A DNA stretch of 64,000 nucleotides from positions 15,545,001-15,609,000 of the forward strand of contig NC_061779.1 of NCBI RefSeq assembly GCF_022458985.1, given 5' to 3'. Origin of the DNA: Mugil cephalus. Lineage: Eukaryota > Chordata > Actinopteri > Mugiliformes > Mugilidae. Of this stretch, positions 8,608 through 26,100 are shown in pieces; position 1 is the first letter of the stretch, and every line of letters starts with the position of its first letter. The notes under the pieces were generated by a model, which was not told the origin of the DNA, ran no database searches, and saw only the letters and a list, made by a program, of their open reading frames with translations. The position numbers were made by a program, and so were the translations under genes.

Positions 8608-10761
8608 TCAGTTTTTGAACATGTCGCACAGCAGCTTTTCCATGGGTGTGTTGCCAATGGTCTTGTGAAAGAACAGCTGCTCTATTTTCACAGAACTCAC
8701 GAAGTGGAGGGACGGCAGAAGAAGTAACAGTCTCCCAAACCTTGTTGGAGAAGAATTAAAGAGAGTGATTTTTTAATTTTTTTTTCTGTTTTGTCATCCA
8801 TGTGACCAACTTCACACCAAAGGAAGGCTTAGTATAATCACCTGGTGCTCTGGCTGGGGTATACTGAATGGATGTGCTGGCCCAACAGCACCTGGGACTG
8901 GTCCTGCAGATTCTCCACCTGCTCTGGGTCTTTGAGGCTGCGTGTCTCTGCACATGAGAGCAAAAAACATCAGACACCGGTTACATGATTAAGTCAACAC
9001 ACTGAAGATCACTGCTCAACGTATAATCGCTCACCTGGCTTGAACAATACAATGGCCTTCAGGCAAGCAAACTCAGTCGGGTCAACGGCCAGGGCCTTGA
9101 AGCGACTGAAGACCTCCTCCAGGATCTGCAGGTCAGCCGTGGGAGGACCGCTCTTGTTCTGCTCTTTGGGGGAAAGGTCTGGCAGCGACAGGAGAGGACA
9201 GCTCTTCATGGGCATGAACCACTGGATGGCGCACAGGAGGAACATCTCACTCCACGATTCCTCAAGAAGAATCACCTGATGATGATGCAGAATTACGTGT
9301 CAGTACTCTCACACGTGATTCGTGTAGGTGTAAACCGGTTCGGGAAGTAAAAAACCGAACCACATGTCAGTCAGCCTCACCTGGTCCCGAAACGGCAGGT
9401 GAGCAAAAACAGGCAGATTTTTGGCCCATTTGACTGACATGAAGAGGAGACGCGCCGACGTCTCGTATACACTCTCTGAGCAGCCGGAGGTGTAGGGTGA
9501 CATCTGACAGTCAAAGGGAGTCTGATCCCTCTCTGAATCGTTTGTTGTCACGTCAATATTCTCCTCCACTGCCGAAGAAGAGATTCAGGCAACTGTTAAG
9601 ACTGCTAGGACTCCAATCTTGTTCGATTTAAAGGCATTACAATCTAAAAAAAACACACACTCAATACCAACCCAACCAGTAAAATCTATTCGTCAAGACA
9701 GATGTGGATATCCACACCCATTTCACTTACCGTCCTCGGGCTCCAGCTTCGCGCACGTCTCTGCAGTCAGCAGGCTGACCATAAAGCGGTGGTTGGTGTT
9801 CGGGTTGCTGCAGGGTTGTATGGAGGTAGAGGTGGTGACAGATGAGGTGACCTGAGGTCTGCAAATGACTGACGCATAGTTGTCAGAGGATTTGAGTTCC
9901 TCTGTGGTGGCCAGGTGCTCCTTCTTAGTGTCCACGCTTAGGGAGTCTAGACTGACGTGTGCAGTGCTCCGAGGCTGACGCTCATTCTGCACAGCTGCCA
10001 AAAACACAGGGTATAAATAATATGTCATCCGAAAAACAGCAGCTTTAGATAATTTTTCCCCACCTTGTGCATTTTAATCTAAATGAACTGAAATCTAATC
10101 TCCTGTCAGAGCTGTCTCACCATCTTTGTTCATGCCAGCTTGGAGACACTTCTTTAATCGACAAGCTTGGCACTGGTTCCGATGAGCCTTGTCAACAGGA
10201 CACCGCCCGGTTCCAGCCTGACACCTACGACGTTAACGGCAGAAACAATTTAGACTCATCAAGCATTCAAATCCGTACAGTGATTTCGATTCCACTCAGC
10301 CTCTTGCTCACCTGTAGATGAGTCGACGTCTCACACTTCTCTTGAAGAAGCCACTGCAGCCGTTGCAGGCGTATATGCCGTAGTGTTTGCCGCTACTCAA
10401 GTCAGAGCAGACTTTACAAAGCAGGCCTTGGCCAAGTGCTTTGCGTGGACCTCTTTCTGCAGAGACCAGATAACAGAAATTAATACTTGGGGCTATTGTA
10501 GATTATTTTAAGCTTGAGTCTACACTTAACTGTACAGATAAATGTTTCTTTAACTAATTTAATATGGATTTTTGCAACTTTTTCAAATAATGCAAATCAT
10601 AAACCTGATACCGAAGGTTACTTTTATTTACTGCCAATACTGGCTTCATAACATATTTGTACAGCAATTAATGGCCCACCTGCTTGAGTTCCATCTGTGC
10701 TTGGATGAGTGAAGTCGCTGGAGTTGTCTGATGAAATCATTTTCATCTCATGGTCCTCCAT
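8608..10761 (-). CDS. nr2e3: Photoreceptor-specific nuclear receptor
   Basis: NR2E3 is an orphan nuclear receptor that represses cone genes and supports rod genes in developing photoreceptors. Eight exons in transcript order: 10680-10761, 10312-10456, 10121-10224, 9731-9994, 9381-9568, 9035-9275, 8842-8947, 8608-8740. All phases agree, giving 420 residues (human 410). The DNA-binding domain starts near residue 41 (CKVC, then [20 protein letters not shown]). The second finger and extension follow ([35 protein letters not shown]). The ligand-binding domain has [16 protein letters not shown] and ends with the characteristic [18 protein letters not shown]. The chosen ATG (MEDHEMKM) begins a short N-terminus that resembles the human one in length but not sequence. 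Exon 2 could also accept a splice from candidate exons further upstream (see findings). Confidence 0.95.
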
Positions 10762-16558: not shown

Positions 16559-19500
16559 TCAGATACCTTGGTACTCGTACTTGCAGTGGCCGACAAAAAG
16601 AGGCTCAGCCCGGATGCCACGCCTGAACAGAAAGTGAAGCCCAGGCATCAGTATATAGTGGTCACACATCATGAGTGACAGACAGTATTGTTAAAAGGTC
16701 TGACTAGACTCGGTTAGGTACCTCAGGAGCTGGCATCGGAAGTCTTGCAATCGAGGAAACGCATCTTTCACACTGGTGGTCTGCTTCTCATCACTCCACA
16801 GTCTCTCTGCAGCAGCACTTGCCCTTGGCCTGGAATTTGTGATGCAGAGAGAGGTTGCTTTGAATAACTGACTGTTGCTGTCCTTATTAATTATGATTTA
16901 CAATGTGAGCATTTCAGAGGTCTTTCTAATCTCGTACCAAAGACGTGGACTGAGGTTGGTGGCATCTACGTACTCCCCCCACATGCAGACTTCACCTCCA
17001 ATCACCAGCTTCTTCTGTTCCTCAGTACCTGAGAGGGCATGGGGACAAGATTTGTGTTTAAAACATCACAAGATACAATTCAAGATTGGCTGTAATGTGT
17101 TCACCACCACAAATTCACCACACCACTTCAAGTCAAAACTGAGCAAATCAGCGTTTTCACCCATGTCTCTAAGTGGGATGCTCCACCAGTAGCTCCCATC
17201 ACCAGATAAGAAACATTACTGCATATAACTGAGCTGAGTTATAACAGGTTGTGATATGAGAGGACCATGCACACACCAGAAAAGTTCTGCGGCTGCACTG
17301 TGTAGTAGTTGCGCCAGTCCTGACCATAGGAAATGTGGTTGATGTACCAAGGGGCGGCCAGCAGGACCCTCTTCCCAGCTTGGGTGATCTTACTGAGCTC
17401 CTCCTGATACTTAGCTGGGACACCCTTCCAGATGTGCAGCACTGTGTCCTTAGGAATCTGAGCAGAGTGACAAACACTACCGTGTTGGACTTCTGAGTAT
17501 TTGTACAAGTTAAGTTATTTACTGTGAGAATTAGATATTTCAGAAATAGGTCATGTACTGTATGTAAAGCATCCTTGATGAGCTTTTGTAAAGTCATGGT
17601 TTGCAGAATTTCATTCCCTCAGATTTACTCATCTTGGTGACATAGTACCGCATGATTGAAATGACTGCTAATAGCTAGTCTGGGAAGTCCACATGTGGCT
17701 GAGGAGTGGACCACAATCGGGCCATTGTTAGAGATGAGCAAGAGCATTTTTACAATCTGGGAAAGCACTGAGCTCAGTGTGCACAGAAAGCGATAAGAAC
17801 TGAAAGTTGTTTTTTTTCAAGTTTTCATTCATTCCTTCATAATAGAAATATCAACATGTATGACAACAAGCTACAGTAAGTCCTGAAGTGTATTAATATT
17901 TAAGTCATCTGCACCATCTTAAAGACAAAGCATAACTTGCTAACTACTTCCAATAAACAAAGGGCAATTAAGCCACACAACCGGAAACACTACCAGCTGG
18001 TGTAGCAAGGATCACACTTCCTGAAGCCAACAGAGTAACACCATCGCCATCTGGTGGTAATGCTACAAAGCCCAACGACACAGCAACACAGCAATTGGTT
18101 CAAGTTCAACCGGGCACAGCACACAGTTTTTGTTTTCTAACCCTTGAAGGCGAGGGGCCACACAGTGTAGTAGCGGGCCCAGTTGTGCGTGGGTCCTGGC
18201 AGGTCCAAATACCACGGAGAGGCCAGAATCACCTTGAGCCCTGCTTTGGCCACCCTGCGCACTTCACACAGGTAACAGCCCTCTTTCCACACCTCCACCA
18301 CTGACAGAGAACTGCGCTGCAACACAAGTCCTATAGACTATCAGACTCGTATAGACTAGTTGCGTTATGCGTTAGCGTGGTGCTATCAGACAACACTGTG
18401 GGTTTGTGCAAACCACTAACTCTGCTGAGGGTAAAATGAAACAGTCAAATACAAAATGCATGTGACATTATACATAGTGTGGACTACTAACTAACTAACT
18501 AACAGCTTAGTGTTTAGATGAAGGATGGAAGAGAACTAATTTTCTCCTTAAAACTATTTTAAAAACTTGGTTTCTTTGCCATTTTTTAATCATACATCAA
18601 ACTTTACACAGTCCTCGACATTTCTTTAGATCAGGAGTCTTCAACGTTTTTGAGGCCAAGGATCCCAAACTGATGGAGAGATTAACCCCCTACCTACTAT
18701 ATGTGTTCTATATTAAACTAGTGCTATTTATAAATATACATTATTAATATTATTATTATCATTTTGCATTCAATATTAAGCTATCCCTTATCCCTTTACT
18801 GAAATGTGTTGGATTCATGTTAATGTGTAATTAAAGAAATTTAAATATGTGGGGATAAATTAAAAAAAATATATATGTATGTAAAAATGTCCCATCAACC
18901 AAAGATTCACGACCCCCCTGCAGCACCTCCGCAGACCTCCTAAGGGTCACGGACCCCCTGTTGAAGACCTATGCTTTACATGTCTTTAGAAACTTAAACT
19001 TCACTGGTGTAGCTTGAACACATCTCGTGCTGCAATGAAACAAAAAATGTCAAAATCTCAAAGAGTTCAAATTACGAAAACGTAAATAGGCTTATCTATA
19101 CAAATAAATGTCATGCACTTGCACAGGAACATTTCTAATCATAACCCATGAATTTATGCTTACACACAAAAAGAAAGAAGACATTTCACAGAACATGCTG
19201 TACGTGTTGTCTGTTGGCGTGTACTTACTCTTTCATGGTAGTCAAAAACATCCTGCCACACAATAGACGTCTTGTTGAGAGCCGAAGTGATGTTCACAAT
19301 GCTGGAATTACATTAATACATTAATGTGTTGAGTTATCAATTTCTGAGCCTTTCTTGTTCCTGTTTACGACAACCTACCTCTCCATGTAGAACGCTTCCA
19401 GTTTGGTGAAGTCTACTCCAAATCCCATCTTACGCATGAACGCTTGGATATCGGGGTTGGATCTCCTACGGAAACGAGCAGCGACAGGTTTTTACCTTTG

Positions 19501-22305
19501 TCATTGTGCTGATTGTGTAAGCACATTGTTCAGAGGCTTAAACTTATTTAGTTGAAATATTACTTTGAAAGGTTTTATATAGATTTCTCATCCCCTTATT
19601 TCATTATTGTATCCTATTGTTGTATTGTATTGTATTGTATTGTAATGCATTGTGTTGCTTTCTATTCAAAACAGCAGAACTAGTCATAGTCACTTACAAA
19701 ACAAGAAAATCCAGTTGAGATGATTAATTGTCACATGTCAACCTACCAGCAGGTAAAGTCAACCTCGTCCCCTCCTAAATGGATGTAGGAATCAGGAAAC
19801 AACGAGGTCACTTCCTTGAACAGGGTCGTCATGAACGCGTAGGTGGAAGGCAGTATTGGATTAACGGGACCAAAGGTTCCCGATGGGGTGCCCCCTCGGT
19901 AGCAGGGAGTCAACAGGTCAGGCTTCCCTAAAAGAAACGGTGATGAAAATTTAGTTCCCCATTTAAGATAAGAGAAAGTAATTTATCACATAGTCGGGAA
20001 ATTCTGTCCGTTGAGTGCAGATCCTGCTAATGTACCCATTTTTTTACAGATAAGCAGTGAGTCAAGCTTTGGCAAATATAATATTACCTTTTATAGTCAT
20101 GAATAACTGTAAGTTCTGCAAGTTACTTTTGTTGAACCAAACCTGGCATTCTGCCACATACTTTAAGATCAAAATGCTAAAATGAATTGGGGTGAAATAG
20201 TTTATTGATGAATGCTGGATTTTACCTTTTCCCCACGACTGGGTGTGGCCTGGTGAATCAAACTCAGGAAGGACTCTTATTCCCCGCATCCTGGCGTGTG
20301 AGATCACTCTCCTCACATCTGACTGTGTGTAGATGTGAGTCATCGGATGGAAAGCCCCCTGAACCAGAGCCAGAAGCCAATATCAGGGTGGATGGTACTT
20401 TTCAGACTTTTCCTACCTCATGACTCCACAAGCAGTAGACCTACTAGTTAAAAACTCTGGACACATAACGACCAACTGTATCTCATAAAATGCTGATAAC
20501 ACTAGAAATATTAGGGAAACTATAATAAATCTGCAGAGTCACCATGGATACATATTACGCAAATCATACTCCACAGCTCTGTTCACATACCTTACTGGAA
20601 AGGTCTGGAAAGGTTCTGCTCTGGTATGGGAAGGAAGGGTCATCCACAATGTGCCAGTGAAACACATTGAATTTACTGTAGGCCATTGCATCCTAACGAG
20701 AAACATGTGTAAATACCAGAGAACAAGTATGACCTATGAAACAGAAAGCTGGAGTTTAGTGATCATTACCAGAGTTTTTAAAATGGCCCCCACTGGTAAA
20801 TAGTGACGCGAGGTGTCCAACAAAATCCCTCTGAACTGAAACCGGGGGAAGTCTTCGATCTCAGTCTTATTGACAAAATACTAAAGGAAGAAAAATGTCA
20901 GAAAAAAACAACAACAACAACAAGAACTCATTAATCAAACACCAACTCCAGATGTTCATACAGTAATTACTTCAGAAAGCATCTTGAGTTTGAGCGTTTG
21001 AGAAAAATCTTACTCACTGTGCCATAATCACCCTGATACACCAACTGACTGAAGGATTCCAGGCCTGTGTTTAGTCGGGGGATATATAAAATAATCAGCA
21101 AGCAGCATTTATATGTACACACATCAGAGTGTAACACTGAGAGCAGTTATCAGCTATGTGGCAGAACAAGAAAACCATGTCAAGCTTTCGACACTAGAGT
21201 CAGGTGGCGGTTAACATGCTGCGCTTTTCTTCACATGCGCTTTTCAAAAGCGTTGGGTAACAATCACCTCTAAGAGCCCCCCACACAGTATCTGCCTTCA
21301 GAGATGCCTGTCCAGCAGAGACACTCAGACTGTCTGGAAAACAAACAGCAGAAAGTTAGATAATGCACGAAGCCCTGCCTACTTAAAACACAACATTACT
21401 CACTCTAACCCATGGTTCCCTGTGTGGCTATACTTACATCTCTCAGATGAGTCCTCGTTTGGGTAACTCTCACAGTCACCGTGGTCAACTGAGACTGTGA
21501 CGATAAATGGTTTATCCACACTGAATCGCAGCACACCATCTGCTGCTGGGCATAAAAGTTGAATAGTTACTGAAGTAGCTGGTCGTTTTTCAACATGAAA
21601 ACGTATGAATATTAAATGTATTATTCTACTAGTATTGGTATTTCTGAAAACACAAACACGAAGCTGTGTTACTGTGGTCCATTGTCACTGTGGGCTTTTG
21701 AAGTTGGTGGGCCTATAGGATGGCTGATTGATGAACTGCTGTCTCTACAAAGCCCATTGATCCATTTTAAATGGCAGCATGACAAACAGAGCATTCAAAA
21801 CAAAACCACAGCGAGCGCTTTGCTCTCCATTTATGGGCATTTATAGTACTGACAGATTATCTGCTCCTACGACCACAGTAGAGTCTATGAAGTCAAGTTT
21901 TGACAAGTCAATTGGTACAACTTCCCGTACAAGTATCTGTACAACTATGTCCTGGTCCGACTTAACTACGAATGGTCCTTTTTAGATGTGAAATGTTTTT
22001 GGTTTTTACCGTGACTTGTACTTCACAGTACAAGTGCAGTACTTACAAGGAAAAATAAGAGAAAAGTATCTCTTGAACGCCTCGTCCAGCACAGAGCAGC
22101 CCTCCTGTGTGGCTGACTGTCTTCCGTAGCCGAAGTAGAAAGTCCGGGGATTCAGTGGGTATCGCTCCGTCGAGGAGGTGAAACTTTGCGGCAGTGGCCA
22201 CACTCCCTCCGCCGTGTGCAGGCCAAGTTGGAGGATAATTAATAGTAGCAAATTGTGATTTAGACGAGCGTGTCGCCCAGAACTTACTGTTAAAACGAGC
22301 TCCAT
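16559..22305 (-). CDS. hexa: Beta-hexosaminidase subunit alpha, with two alternative versions of exon 11
   Basis: This lysosomal GH20 enzyme removes terminal N-acetylhexosamine; with the beta subunit it degrades GM2 ganglioside. Exons in transcript order: 22047-22305, 21438-21545, 21268-21333, 21018-21064, 20770-20880, 20591-20692, 20226-20358, 19747-19927, 19379-19465, 19229-19301, then either 18142-18316 (11a) or 17277-17457 (11b), then 16938-17028, 16722-16829, 16559-16622. The product is 536 residues with 11b and 534 with 11a (human 529). Visible parts are a signal peptide ([17 protein letters not shown]), the catalytic pair in HLGGDEVDF (Asp329, Glu330), several NXT/S sites and the active-site loop CMWGEYVD. 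The ends of the two 11th exons share phase, so they are predicted to be mutually exclusive. Exon 11b has the more canonical sequence. The gene is divergent from ARIH1. Confidence 0.94.
17277..17457 (-). other. hexa: hexa exon 11b, alpha-type active-site exon
   Basis: The exon is 181 bp, starts in phase 0 and ends with one spare base. It encodes 60 full codons, beginning [10 protein letters not shown] and including [18 protein letters not shown]. Trp399 and Tyr427 correspond to human alpha Trp392 and Tyr421. The Asn429-His430 pair sits where the alpha subunit has Asn423-Arg424, residues that admit the acidic sugars of GM2. The acceptor is good (tcactctgctcag); the donor (TCTG/gtgtgtgc) is weak. 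It is close to the canonical sequence of vertebrate HEXA and HEXB. Confidence 0.9.
18142..18316 (-). other. hexa: hexa exon 11a, duplicated beta-type active-site exon
   Basis: The exon is 175 bp, phase 0 to 1, the same as 11b, and is open throughout. It encodes 58 full codons, beginning [13 protein letters not shown] and including [18 protein letters not shown]. It is plainly homologous to 11b but diverged. It keeps the Trp (399) and Tyr (425) of the active site and carries Asp-Leu, the pair found in the human beta subunit (Asp452-Leu453). The ISYG motif that usually follows is replaced by PGPT. The acceptor is good (cttgtgttgcag); the donor (AAGG/gttaga) is weak. Because 175 is not a multiple of three, including both copies shifts the frame. 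Confidence 0.85.
18632..18973. mobile_element. hAT-like MITE (non-autonomous DNA transposon)
   Basis: The ends are imperfect inverted repeats: CAGGAGTCTTCAAC at the left and the reverse complement of CATAGGTCTTCAAC at the right. Both ends share an inner 'aggccaaggatccc' / 'gggtccgtgacc' type block. The element is flanked by ctttagat (18624-18631) and ctttacat (18974-18981), an 8-bp target duplication with one mismatch, as expected for hAT transposons. It is about 342 bp, has no coding sequence, and lies in hexa intron 10, upstream of exon 11a. Confidence 0.8.
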
Positions 22306-23156: not shown

Positions 23157-26100
23157 ATGGACTCAGACGAGGGTTATAACTATGATTACGACGACGAGGA
23201 GGAAGAATGTAGCGAGGACAGCAACGAAGAGGAGCCCGAGGACGACACCCTGGAGCTCGGAGAGGTGGAGTTGGTCGATCCCGTGGTGGCCGGTGGGGAG
23301 CGAGACGAGTGCAGCGAGACTGGCGGAGGGGGCCACGGCCCTGGCGAGGAAGAGGAGGAGGACTACCGCTTCGAGGTTTTGACTGCCGAGCAGATCCTCC
23401 AGCATATGGTGGAGTGTATCAGGGAGGTCAACGAGGTCATCCAGGTAGGTATTCTGGTATGTCAGCGTCAGGAAAGACCGGGGTCCAGGCTTGTGGGAAG
23501 CATAAACAGGCCATGGACGTTAGCTCAACTGTTAGCATTGTAGGAGTAGTTTACTTGCTGGAAGTTGACAGTTCACAACAGTCATAAGATCAGTGTTGGA
23601 CCAAAACAGATTAATGTAGAAATAGCTCTCTTCTGCTGTGCACAATTTGAAACGAATGTATGGACAACGTGTGCTCTGTACATTGAGATATCAATTTCAT
23701 TAGGAGTTTTGTTCCAGGAAGTAGTCTAATCCAAGTTGAGAAGTTGGCAGTACCGTCTGCTAAGCTAACGTTAGCTCGCTAAGCTAACCACCTAGCCAAC
23801 TGAAACCGTTAGCTCACCTTAACGCCTCTGGTTCTAGAATTAGATATGACATTAAGATCCAGCACTAGCTGGACGATAGTCGGACTATTTTAACCCATCC
23901 ACCAAAACATGACATGACAAATATGATAAAATTAACGATAATCTTATTTTAATGTTGGACCAAAGGCTTGGCCATCGAGTTGGTTAGCAAATTTTCATCC
24001 TATTTCAGTTACGTTAATGTTAACAAGCATTTAAATGATCCCCAACAAAGTCGGGATAGATCACATGGAGATGTTGAAATTGGCACGGTTTGTTGTAGAT
24101 TACATTTATCCGGGGAAACACGGCGTAGCTCTTCGTCTTAACCTAACGTTAACTTGGGCCTCCATTTCCTTTCACGTAGCTTCACTTGGGCATAGATTAA
24201 AATGGAAAGTGGTCTTGATAGACCTGCAGCTTCGGGCTTTTGAGAAAGGGCGTTGTATTTTTGTGAAACATCATTGCACTGTTTCACCGTAAACATGCCT
24301 TAAAACGGGAATTGATCAAATTTCACCAAGTTATTCCTGTACAGCCGCATGGCAGTTGTTTCTACAGCAGAAGCAACATGGGGATTGTTCTAAAAATAGT
24401 ATTTAGGTATAGCCACTTAATTTTACGGTTTTTATAGCCCCTACTAGTATATGTTCAAAGTGAATTTATACATGTTTTCTAACCTAAAGTTTTGAATGTA
24501 GAGTACATTATAGTAGAATAGTTGCCTTCACTTGAATGTACTTTTCTTGTAAATGTCTCCACATGTCAGGAGTGATGGTTTTGCCTGGCCTCTGAAGATG
24601 CTTCAGGGTAATGTTGCAACTGACTGGTGCCTTTTTTTCATGTAGCGACTTCTTATCCTGTCAAAAACAGAACAGGTTAAGCTTGCATGAAGTTTACGCA
24701 TCGTATTACTGAGAGACATTTCTTTTGTCGCACATTGATATCAGTGAGTATAGATCAAATACCAATCAGTATAACTCTCCCCGCCAACTTCAGAATTAAT
24801 ATGCCACTAAATCAGGACCTATCTAGAACTTAACAGTATAACCTCTGTGAAGTTAAAATGTACGGCATGGCTTGTGTAGAGTTTGTTATTTTTAACTGGT
24901 GTTACCTTATAAACAGAAAATATGGTAAATCTACCGTCTTTAGTCTTGTTTCATTGATAGCTGTGCCATGATTTGTTCTTTTGAGGAATATCCTGTTTTA
25001 ACTGTATGATTTAACACAGGAACCATTATACCAAGTATTATTTAAGCCACATCACTGAAAGTTGTATTATTTGATTATTGCGCCGCTATTGACCTAGGGA
25101 TTCCTTTTTATAAATCACAGTGAAAGGAGTAAAATAATAATTGATTGTGTCAACAAGTTACATGCAGACATTTCCCTTATCTAATCTTGTACTAGCTGAG
25201 GACAACCCAAAGTTCCTGCCTTAAACAGTGGTATAATGGCACTGACCTATATTGTACTATCTACTGTATCTACAGCACACTGCTGGTTCGCCATCATACC
25301 TTTTTCAAAATGGGTTACAACGTATGCTTGCACTTTAGCATGTTTCTGAAACTGATGCATGACTCAGGTTTTCTAGATATCATGGTGCATGCATTAAATG
25401 CCTGCGGCTAACACTTTCAGTTTTCACTCTGCTCATTAAACGTCTAATGGCTAAAAGACATTTTGAGTGAAAGTCATCGTTGTTAATCTACAAAATCACA
25501 CCCGTTCCTTGTCCCCTCTGTGACCAGCATGTCAGAGTGCCCCAATGAGACCAGGGAGTGTCAACCAATCATAAGTGTTTCTCCAGTTTCACTGTGTGTC
25601 TCTCCCAATTAGCCAGTTCCCAGTGGTATTTAACCACACAACATGATGACGGCAACGAACATTTAAGCAACACTCCAGTGGCAACTGTGTGATGTTGTAG
25701 CTGGCGATGCTTGGCCATTGTATAGCTTTCTCACTCTTGGTGTGAACATAGAATTCATTCATATCAATGTGGTGACTTCAGCAACCACAGGAAAGGACCT
25801 AAATCATACTTTACTATTTGTACATAAACCTATTCTGCTTTTTTATCTAGTGTTGTTTTGTTAGCAGTTTAGAGGCAGGGTACATTTATATGATTTGTTT
25901 TTTTTTTATGTTATATTGTTGTATCAATTAAAAGAAAACTGGGAACATCCTGTTACATTTCATTAGCCATCTTTTCTTATGACGCCAATACCAGTGCAAT
26001 ATTTTTTAATAGCTAATAATGAAGCTTCAGAGCTGCTGTCACACAAAACGCTTAAATTCTGTAAATTGCACCTGTCACTTTCAGTTTTCTTCCTTTAGCT

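Follow-up and report, generated by a model that had tools for sequence, protein, structure and literature searches.

Both hexosaminidase genes of Mugil cephalus, hexa and hexb, contain two homologous copies of exon 11 in tandem, alike between the genes in lengths, order, phase and types of specificity residue. In either gene the reading frame survives only when a single copy is used. The remainder of the protein places fish hexa with human HEXA and fish hexb with human HEXB, each human protein containing one exon type. We consider it probable that this pair, predicted to be mutually exclusive, predates the HEXA/HEXB duplication, was kept twice in the fish and was split between the human genes. 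The case bears on two human disease genes, since defects of HEXA and HEXB underlie Tay-Sachs and Sandhoff disease.

The hexa gene carries two tandem copies of exon 11

The window analyzed is a stretch of 64,000 nt of contig 10, in which hexa lies on the minus strand:

16559..22305, minus strand: hexa coding region, exons 1 to 14 and the extra exon 11
19229..19301, minus strand: exon 10, ending in phase 0, with the exon 11 pair on its 3' flank
18142..18316, minus strand: exon 11a, 175 nt, beta-type copy reading WYLDL, without an IPV-type loop, AG/GT borders
17458..18141, minus strand: intron separating 11a from 11b, 684 nt, GC 0.40
17277..17457, minus strand: exon 11b, 181 nt, alpha-type copy reading WYINH, loop two codons longer, AG/GT borders
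16938..17028, minus strand: exon 12, starting in phase 1, downstream neighbor of 11b

Two homologous exons of 175 and 181 nt had been predicted to lie in tandem between the same flanking exons, and we found them there, at 18142-18316 and 17277-17457. Both start in phase 0, end with one spare base and are open throughout, again as predicted, and their borders are AG/GT, as are those of exons 10 and 12 and the other internal borders of hexa. The frame argument held as well: inclusion of both copies, or of neither, breaks the frame and places a stop 375 nt (both) or 175 nt (neither) before the last exon junction. With 11a alone the coding sequence runs to the normal stop over 1629 nt, and with 11b alone over 1635 nt.

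In a PDB search, the hexa-11a peptide matched human HEXB (E 1e-11) and HEXA (E 2.6e-07), a homology far above chance, and the hexa-11b peptide matched HEXA (E 6.8e-17). The 11b form of the protein, searched against the window, recovers 11a at 37% identity (E 8e-8), and in a tblastn of hexa against the window (E up to 0.1) exon 11 was the only hexa exon present twice. The Glyco_hydro_20 domain was present in the two of the four hexa and hexb isoforms that were scanned (301 bits in the hexa-11a form, 312 bits in the hexb-11b form); NCBIfam gave no match for either hexa exon 11 peptide.

The two copies differ at the substrate specificity residues

According to extracts of PMC3587417, action on charged substrates depends mainly on whether a subunit has the N423-R424 of alpha or the D452-L453 of beta, and beta does not encode the IPV loop found in alpha. 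The same extracts state that an importance for GM2 activator binding was borne out experimentally for the GSEP loop but not for the IPV loop. Both the Asn/Asp pair and the IPV difference fall within exon 11. The corresponding codons in hexa are:

18200..18205, minus strand: 11a codons for Asp-Leu, corresponding in the alignment to D452-L453 of human beta
17335..17340, minus strand: 11b codons for Asn-His, corresponding in the alignment to N423-R424 of human alpha, with His for Arg

The original prediction compared 11a (WYLDL) with human beta, and the closest solved structure is indeed HEXB, at 48 bits against 34 for HEXA. Its comparison of 11b with human alpha stood in part: the copy reads WYINH and has the expected Asn, but His occupies the Arg424 position and the margin over beta is slight (63.6 bits for HEXA, 62.5 for the engineered beta subunit 5bro_A and 58.7-60.1 for wild-type HEXB). 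A His at this position would be largely charged at lysosomal pH.

A second gene, hexb, carries the same pair

We searched the genome (635 Mb, 24 contigs) with the GH20 domain; ten candidates were scored, and the six exon matches came from hexa (three) and from contig 19 (three). The contig 19 gene is hexb: in the tree of the protein outside exon 11, the grouping of fish hexa with human HEXA and of this gene with HEXB was ahead of the next arrangement by 27.8 lnL, and both remaining arrangements were rejected (AU 0.0003 and 0.0007). When the genome was searched with the hexa-11a peptide, four candidates were scored and all four matched, being the exon 11 pairs of hexa and hexb. The hexb copies, at locus L007, are in the same order as those of hexa:

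L007 5938-6112: hexb exon 11a, 175 nt, WYLDY, AG/GT borders, upstream of 11b as in hexa
L007 7399-7579: hexb exon 11b, 181 nt, WYLNR, AG/GT borders

The pairs of the two genes thus have in common their lengths (175/181), order, phase and residue types. The human alpha pair, Asn then Arg, is present in hexb-11b (NR), and hexa-11b has Asn-His; the human beta pair, Asp then Leu, is present in hexa-11a (DL), and hexb-11a has Asp-Tyr. At the IPV loop, the 11a exons of the two genes lack two codons that the 11b exons have, and over this stretch they match human beta in length. With either exon 11 singly, hexb is open to its normal stop; with both, a stop falls 321 nt before the last junction, and with neither, 172 nt before it. 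Since both or neither means a premature stop, only mRNAs with a single copy would be productive.

Because hexb carries the same pair, the event is likely to be old and to concern both genes. This modifies the proposal that hexa splicing acts as an alpha/beta switch. As proposed, the structure of the exons is that of alternatives and their specificity residues are different, but the arrangement is not peculiar to hexa, and a clean switch in this gene is doubtful because its 11a lacks the Tyr that completes the active site of the partner subunit. The cleaner switch would be that of hexb, which we regard as the stronger case.

Exon type and gene history in the exon 11 tree

We evaluated all 105 topologies of six exon 11 sequences (the four fish exons, human HEXA and human HEXB) under four models. 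The split by exon type, {hexa-11a, hexb-11a, human B} against {hexa-11b, hexb-11b, human A}, received a relative-likelihood weight of 0.70-0.88 (0.695 with LG, 0.883 with LG+G4, 0.874 with JTT+G4 and 0.876 with WAG+G4) and an ultrafast bootstrap of 67. The gene-wise split received 0.003-0.009 over the four models, and trees uniting hexb-11a with hexb-11b received 0.026-0.121. The AU test did not reject the gene-wise grouping of exon 11 (p 0.29-0.41), and the quartet of the four fish exons was undecided (0.39 lnL).

A comparison of single sites points in the same direction as the exon-type split for one of the two pairings. When hexa-11a and hexb-11b are set against the human pair, five sites cross the genes and three follow them, compared with 3 and 20 outside exon 11 (438 gap-free columns; Fisher p 0.013). 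For hexa-11b and hexb-11a, no site crosses and three follow the genes. We conclude that an ancestral origin of the pair is likely rather than proven, with the shared lengths and residue states weighing as much as the tree.

Bacterial outgroups were considered for polarizing the Asp/Asn position and set aside, as the seven loci of one scan align too poorly there; one of them, L018, reads YFDY. In viral contigs, 10 stretches fit a pattern and none was a relative.

Exon 11a of hexa has an altered loop

Alignment of the exon 11 peptides revealed a feature absent from the original prediction:

18182..18199, minus strand: PGPTHN of hexa 11a in place of ISYGQD, with loss of the Tyr456 equivalent (alignment with the five other sequences)

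The other five sequences read ISYG, then Q or P, then D. Tyr456 is described in extracts of PMC4449183 and PMC2492878 as completing the active site of the partner subunit; it is replaced by Pro in hexa-11a and kept in the other three fish exons. Overall, the other five sequences agree at 19 columns, of which 7 are changed in hexa-11a, and these changes are concentrated in the loop (5/5 columns, against 2/14 elsewhere; hypergeometric p 0.0018). A subunit made with hexa-11a would probably combine a beta-like pocket with a failure to complete the site of its partner, and the exon may be either specialized or declining. Origin of PGPTHN by a compensated frameshift was weak at best as an explanation: shifted-register matches of 6-7 bases recur in 74, 180 and 231 of 2000 shuffles.

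Among the four fish exons, dS ranges from 0.94 to 1.77 and dN from 0.33 to 0.77, with dN below dS in all six pairs. The ratio is lowest in the hexb pair (0.33/1.49) and highest in the hexa pair (0.77/0.94, about 0.8). GC3 is 71-74% in all four exons, and the six surrounding introns have a GC of 35-43%; the 43/58 GC third positions of hexa-11a have a probability of 1.4e-07 under a third-position GC of 0.40. Identity of hexa-11a to hexb-11a is 40% (23/58), compared with about 17% identity to the starting sequence expected in simulation after one substitution per site of free drift. These values leave room for a recent loss of constraint on hexa-11a.

Splice sites and predicted splicing

To score the splice sites, we derived a small matrix from the remaining exons of hexa and hexb, which supply 24 donors and 24 acceptors. 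In hexa, the donor/acceptor scores are 8.1/5.2 for 11b and 4.1/0.6 for 11a; in hexb, they are 6.9/4.6 for 11a and 2.5/2.3 for 11b. All four exons score within the reference range, the hexa-11a acceptor being near the bottom of it (reference acceptors 0.1-10.2). The stronger sites in each fish gene are those of the exon type carried by its human orthologue. This pattern would fit genes that are part-way to fixed roles and, from so small a matrix, is suggestive only.

Exclusivity could rest on the reading frame and the decay of double products, combined with regulated choice. A short motif near exon 11b of hexa stands out:

17266..17271, minus strand: TGCATG, five bases into the intron after hexa 11b

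We take this to be an RBFOX-type hexamer; the three hexb introns examined contain no TGCATG. UG-rich sequence follows both 11b donors, GTGTGTGCATG in hexa (window 17266-17276) and GTTTGTGTGCG in hexb (L007 7580-7590), and these stretches are possible candidate sites for UG-binding splicing factors.

A pairing stem common to both genes was also considered and rejected, as the one inverted pair in the hexa region and the eight in the hexb region include none at corresponding places. Within hexb, 20 of the 23 bases at L007 6019-6041, a stretch of exon 11a, are complementary to L007 7121-7143 in the intron upstream of 11b, a value reached by none of 100 shuffled introns. This pairing could hide 11a in a stem, and no counterpart was found in hexa. 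At the level of the gene, extracts of PMC8933327, on the reef fish Acanthochromis polyacanthus in a heatwave, list hexb among the differentially spliced genes, which number 21 in the February-March comparison.

A predicted natural counterpart of engineered hybrid subunits

Spliced with 11b, fish hexb would encode a beta backbone with a WYLNR pocket, the longer loop, and a GSTP loop close to the GSEP of alpha. The GSTP (GSxP) loop is encoded in exon 8, outside the exon 11 pair. The best PDB match of hexb-11b is 5bro_A (68.8 bits, among eight distinct sequences with E up to 0.001), an engineered human beta subunit whose alignment shows GSEP and WYLNR in a beta backbone. With its beta backbone, WYLNR and GSTP loop, the hexb-11b form resembles engineered beta-based hybrids, namely 5bro_A, H1 (PMC3587417, extracts) and Mod2B (PMC11698352, extracts). 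Unlike them, it is natural and presumably chosen by splicing, with an activity that is predicted.

The charge-specificity difference is given in PMC3587417, in the same extracts, as one reason why the beta homodimer cannot replace a missing alpha subunit, and beta-backbone subunits with an alpha-type pocket, which the fish pair would provide in natural form, are what therapy designs aim for. In that work, beta-based hybrids gained MUGS activity, and H1 and H2 formed homodimers that did not hydrolyze GM2 with the activator; Mod2B is presented in PMC11698352 as a modified beta subunit forming a homodimer with HexA function. Given these results, activity on sulfated substrates would be the firmer prediction for the hexb-11b form.

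Exon 8 of fish hexb (L007 5056-5236) has the alpha-like loop where human beta has RQNKLDSFGPINP, and the beta form of this loop may hence have arisen later, on the way to humans.

Probable origin of the pair and alternative explanations

In the scenario that we infer, exon 11 of an ancestral vertebrate lysosomal hexosaminidase gene would already have been a mutually exclusive tandem pair before the HEXA/HEXB duplication. Its upstream copy, 11a, would give a beta-type pocket for neutral sugars, marked by a short loop and by Asp at position 452. Its downstream copy, 11b, would give an alpha-type pocket for charged sugars, in which Asn is joined by a basic residue and the loop has two more residues. 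The fish genes would still splice both exons in vivo. On the human line, 11a would have been lost from HEXA and 11b from HEXB, fixing alpha and beta specificity in separate genes. If the pair is ancestral, the alpha/beta difference would have been sorted from a pre-existing splicing choice and not evolved after duplication. About a fuller version we are evenly divided: that the ancestral gene made both subunit types by exon choice, that the fish makes four types from two genes, with the alpha-pocket form of hexb perhaps acting as a single-gene homodimer on charged substrates, in the manner of the beta-based hybrids designed for Tay-Sachs therapy, and that the human division is one of reciprocal loss.

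The main competitor of an ancestral pair is that exon 11 was duplicated separately in hexa and hexb, or homogenized within each gene, with Asp/Asn and the loop length arising twice under similar selection. Among the fish exons, similarity is highest between the two hexb copies (35/58 residues identical, 60%), each of which is less similar to its hexa counterpart, and hexb-11b is overall nearer to wild-type human beta (63.1-64.7 bits) than to alpha (59.6-59.7). Both observations would also be expected from intragenic conversion or a separate duplication in hexb, and the undecided fish quartet and the survival of the gene grouping in the AU test fit as well. However, the same exon, order, 175/181 lengths and residue differences would be needed twice, and gene-type trees carry a weight below 0.01; we judge separate duplication or homogenization unlikely. 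Misplacement of a piece of hexb in hexa, or a similar assembly artefact, found no support and is exceedingly improbable: copies are only 31-50% identical in residues across the genes, each gene has its own pair on a different contig, and neither the window nor L007 contains an N.

Two further explanations concern the use of the exons. Compatible with an ancestral pair, and in our view a serious contender though somewhat short of an even chance, is that hexa-11a is a relic, hexa being spliced almost only with 11b and both exons being used only by hexb. Its weak acceptor (0.6), the loss of the ISYG loop and Tyr456, and the longest branch of the exon 11 tree (1.57) all fit a relic. Moreover, in simulation a 58-codon frame stays open with a probability of 0.30 at 0.2 neutral substitutions per site, so that the open frame of hexa-11a is weak evidence of use. 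Against this stand its canonical borders and open frame, the retained WYLD, a GC3 of 43/58 beside surrounding introns of 0.35-0.43 GC, and the clustering of its changes at otherwise invariant sites in one loop, which looks like remodelling rather than even decay. Alternatively, the second exon might mainly lower expression, with double inclusion or skipping yielding substrates of nonsense-mediated decay, as the premature stops of hexa and hexb, 172-375 nt ahead of the final junction, would permit. Yet a poison exon needs no catalytic-domain sequence with specificity residues, and WYL, ISYGQDW and the open frame have all been preserved in each hexb copy, which leaves this explanation improbable.

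Comparison with known mutually exclusive exons

The sorting of mutually exclusive exons between paralogues is a known kind of event. Extracts of PMC9741552 describe such pairs after gene duplication in CACNA1C/D versus CACNA1F/S and in FYN versus SRC, YES1, FGR and FRK. As in hexa and hexb, these are adjacent homologous exons of the same phase. They are used one at a time and, as we propose for the hexosaminidases, the pair was kept in some paralogues and split between others. Unlike those cases, the hexa/hexb pair exchanges a segment in which a lysosomal enzyme has its specificity residues, its usage is predicted from sequence, and its division would explain a pair of human disease genes.

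Exons 4a/4b of OGDH (PMC7969005, extracts) likewise form a vertebrate mutually exclusive pair that changes a property of an enzyme. In OGDH, distant branch points limit the length of the intron and so keep the two exons apart in the mRNA; the intervening introns of hexa and hexb measure 684 and 1286 nt, and the AG nearest upstream of the 11b acceptor lies 17 nt (hexa) and 59 nt (hexb) away. With AGs this near and introns this long, enforcement of the OGDH kind is not favored.

According to extracts of PMC2492878, vertebrate HEXA and HEXB genes universally have 14 exons, and the HEXA/HEXB duplication took place in the vertebrate ancestor, after the tunicate split. Compared with these 14-exon genes, fish hexa and hexb each have an additional alternative exon. 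That study used the longest of the predicted splice variants, so an alternative exon could have been missed. HEXA and HEXB do not appear, by term counts, in the main texts of PMC5740500 and PMC9741552, which treat human mutually exclusive exons. In the titles and abstract openings of an open-access library, among the matches listed, we found no description of a HEXA/HEXB exon 11 pair.

Surroundings of the exon pair

An interspersed repeat occupies window 18620-18980 in the intron before hexa 11a; the best 40 of 4239 genome candidates were scored and all matched. A stretch of 118 columns of it also matches the intron between 11a and 11b of hexb (L007 6694-6804, 79%), as an ordinary repeat. The hexa gene, starting at 22305, stands head to head with a plus-strand gene at 23157, presumably arih1-like, with 852 bases between them. 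At 10100-10480, the minus strand of the window contains exons of a nuclear receptor DNA-binding domain, which we take to be nr2e3-like.
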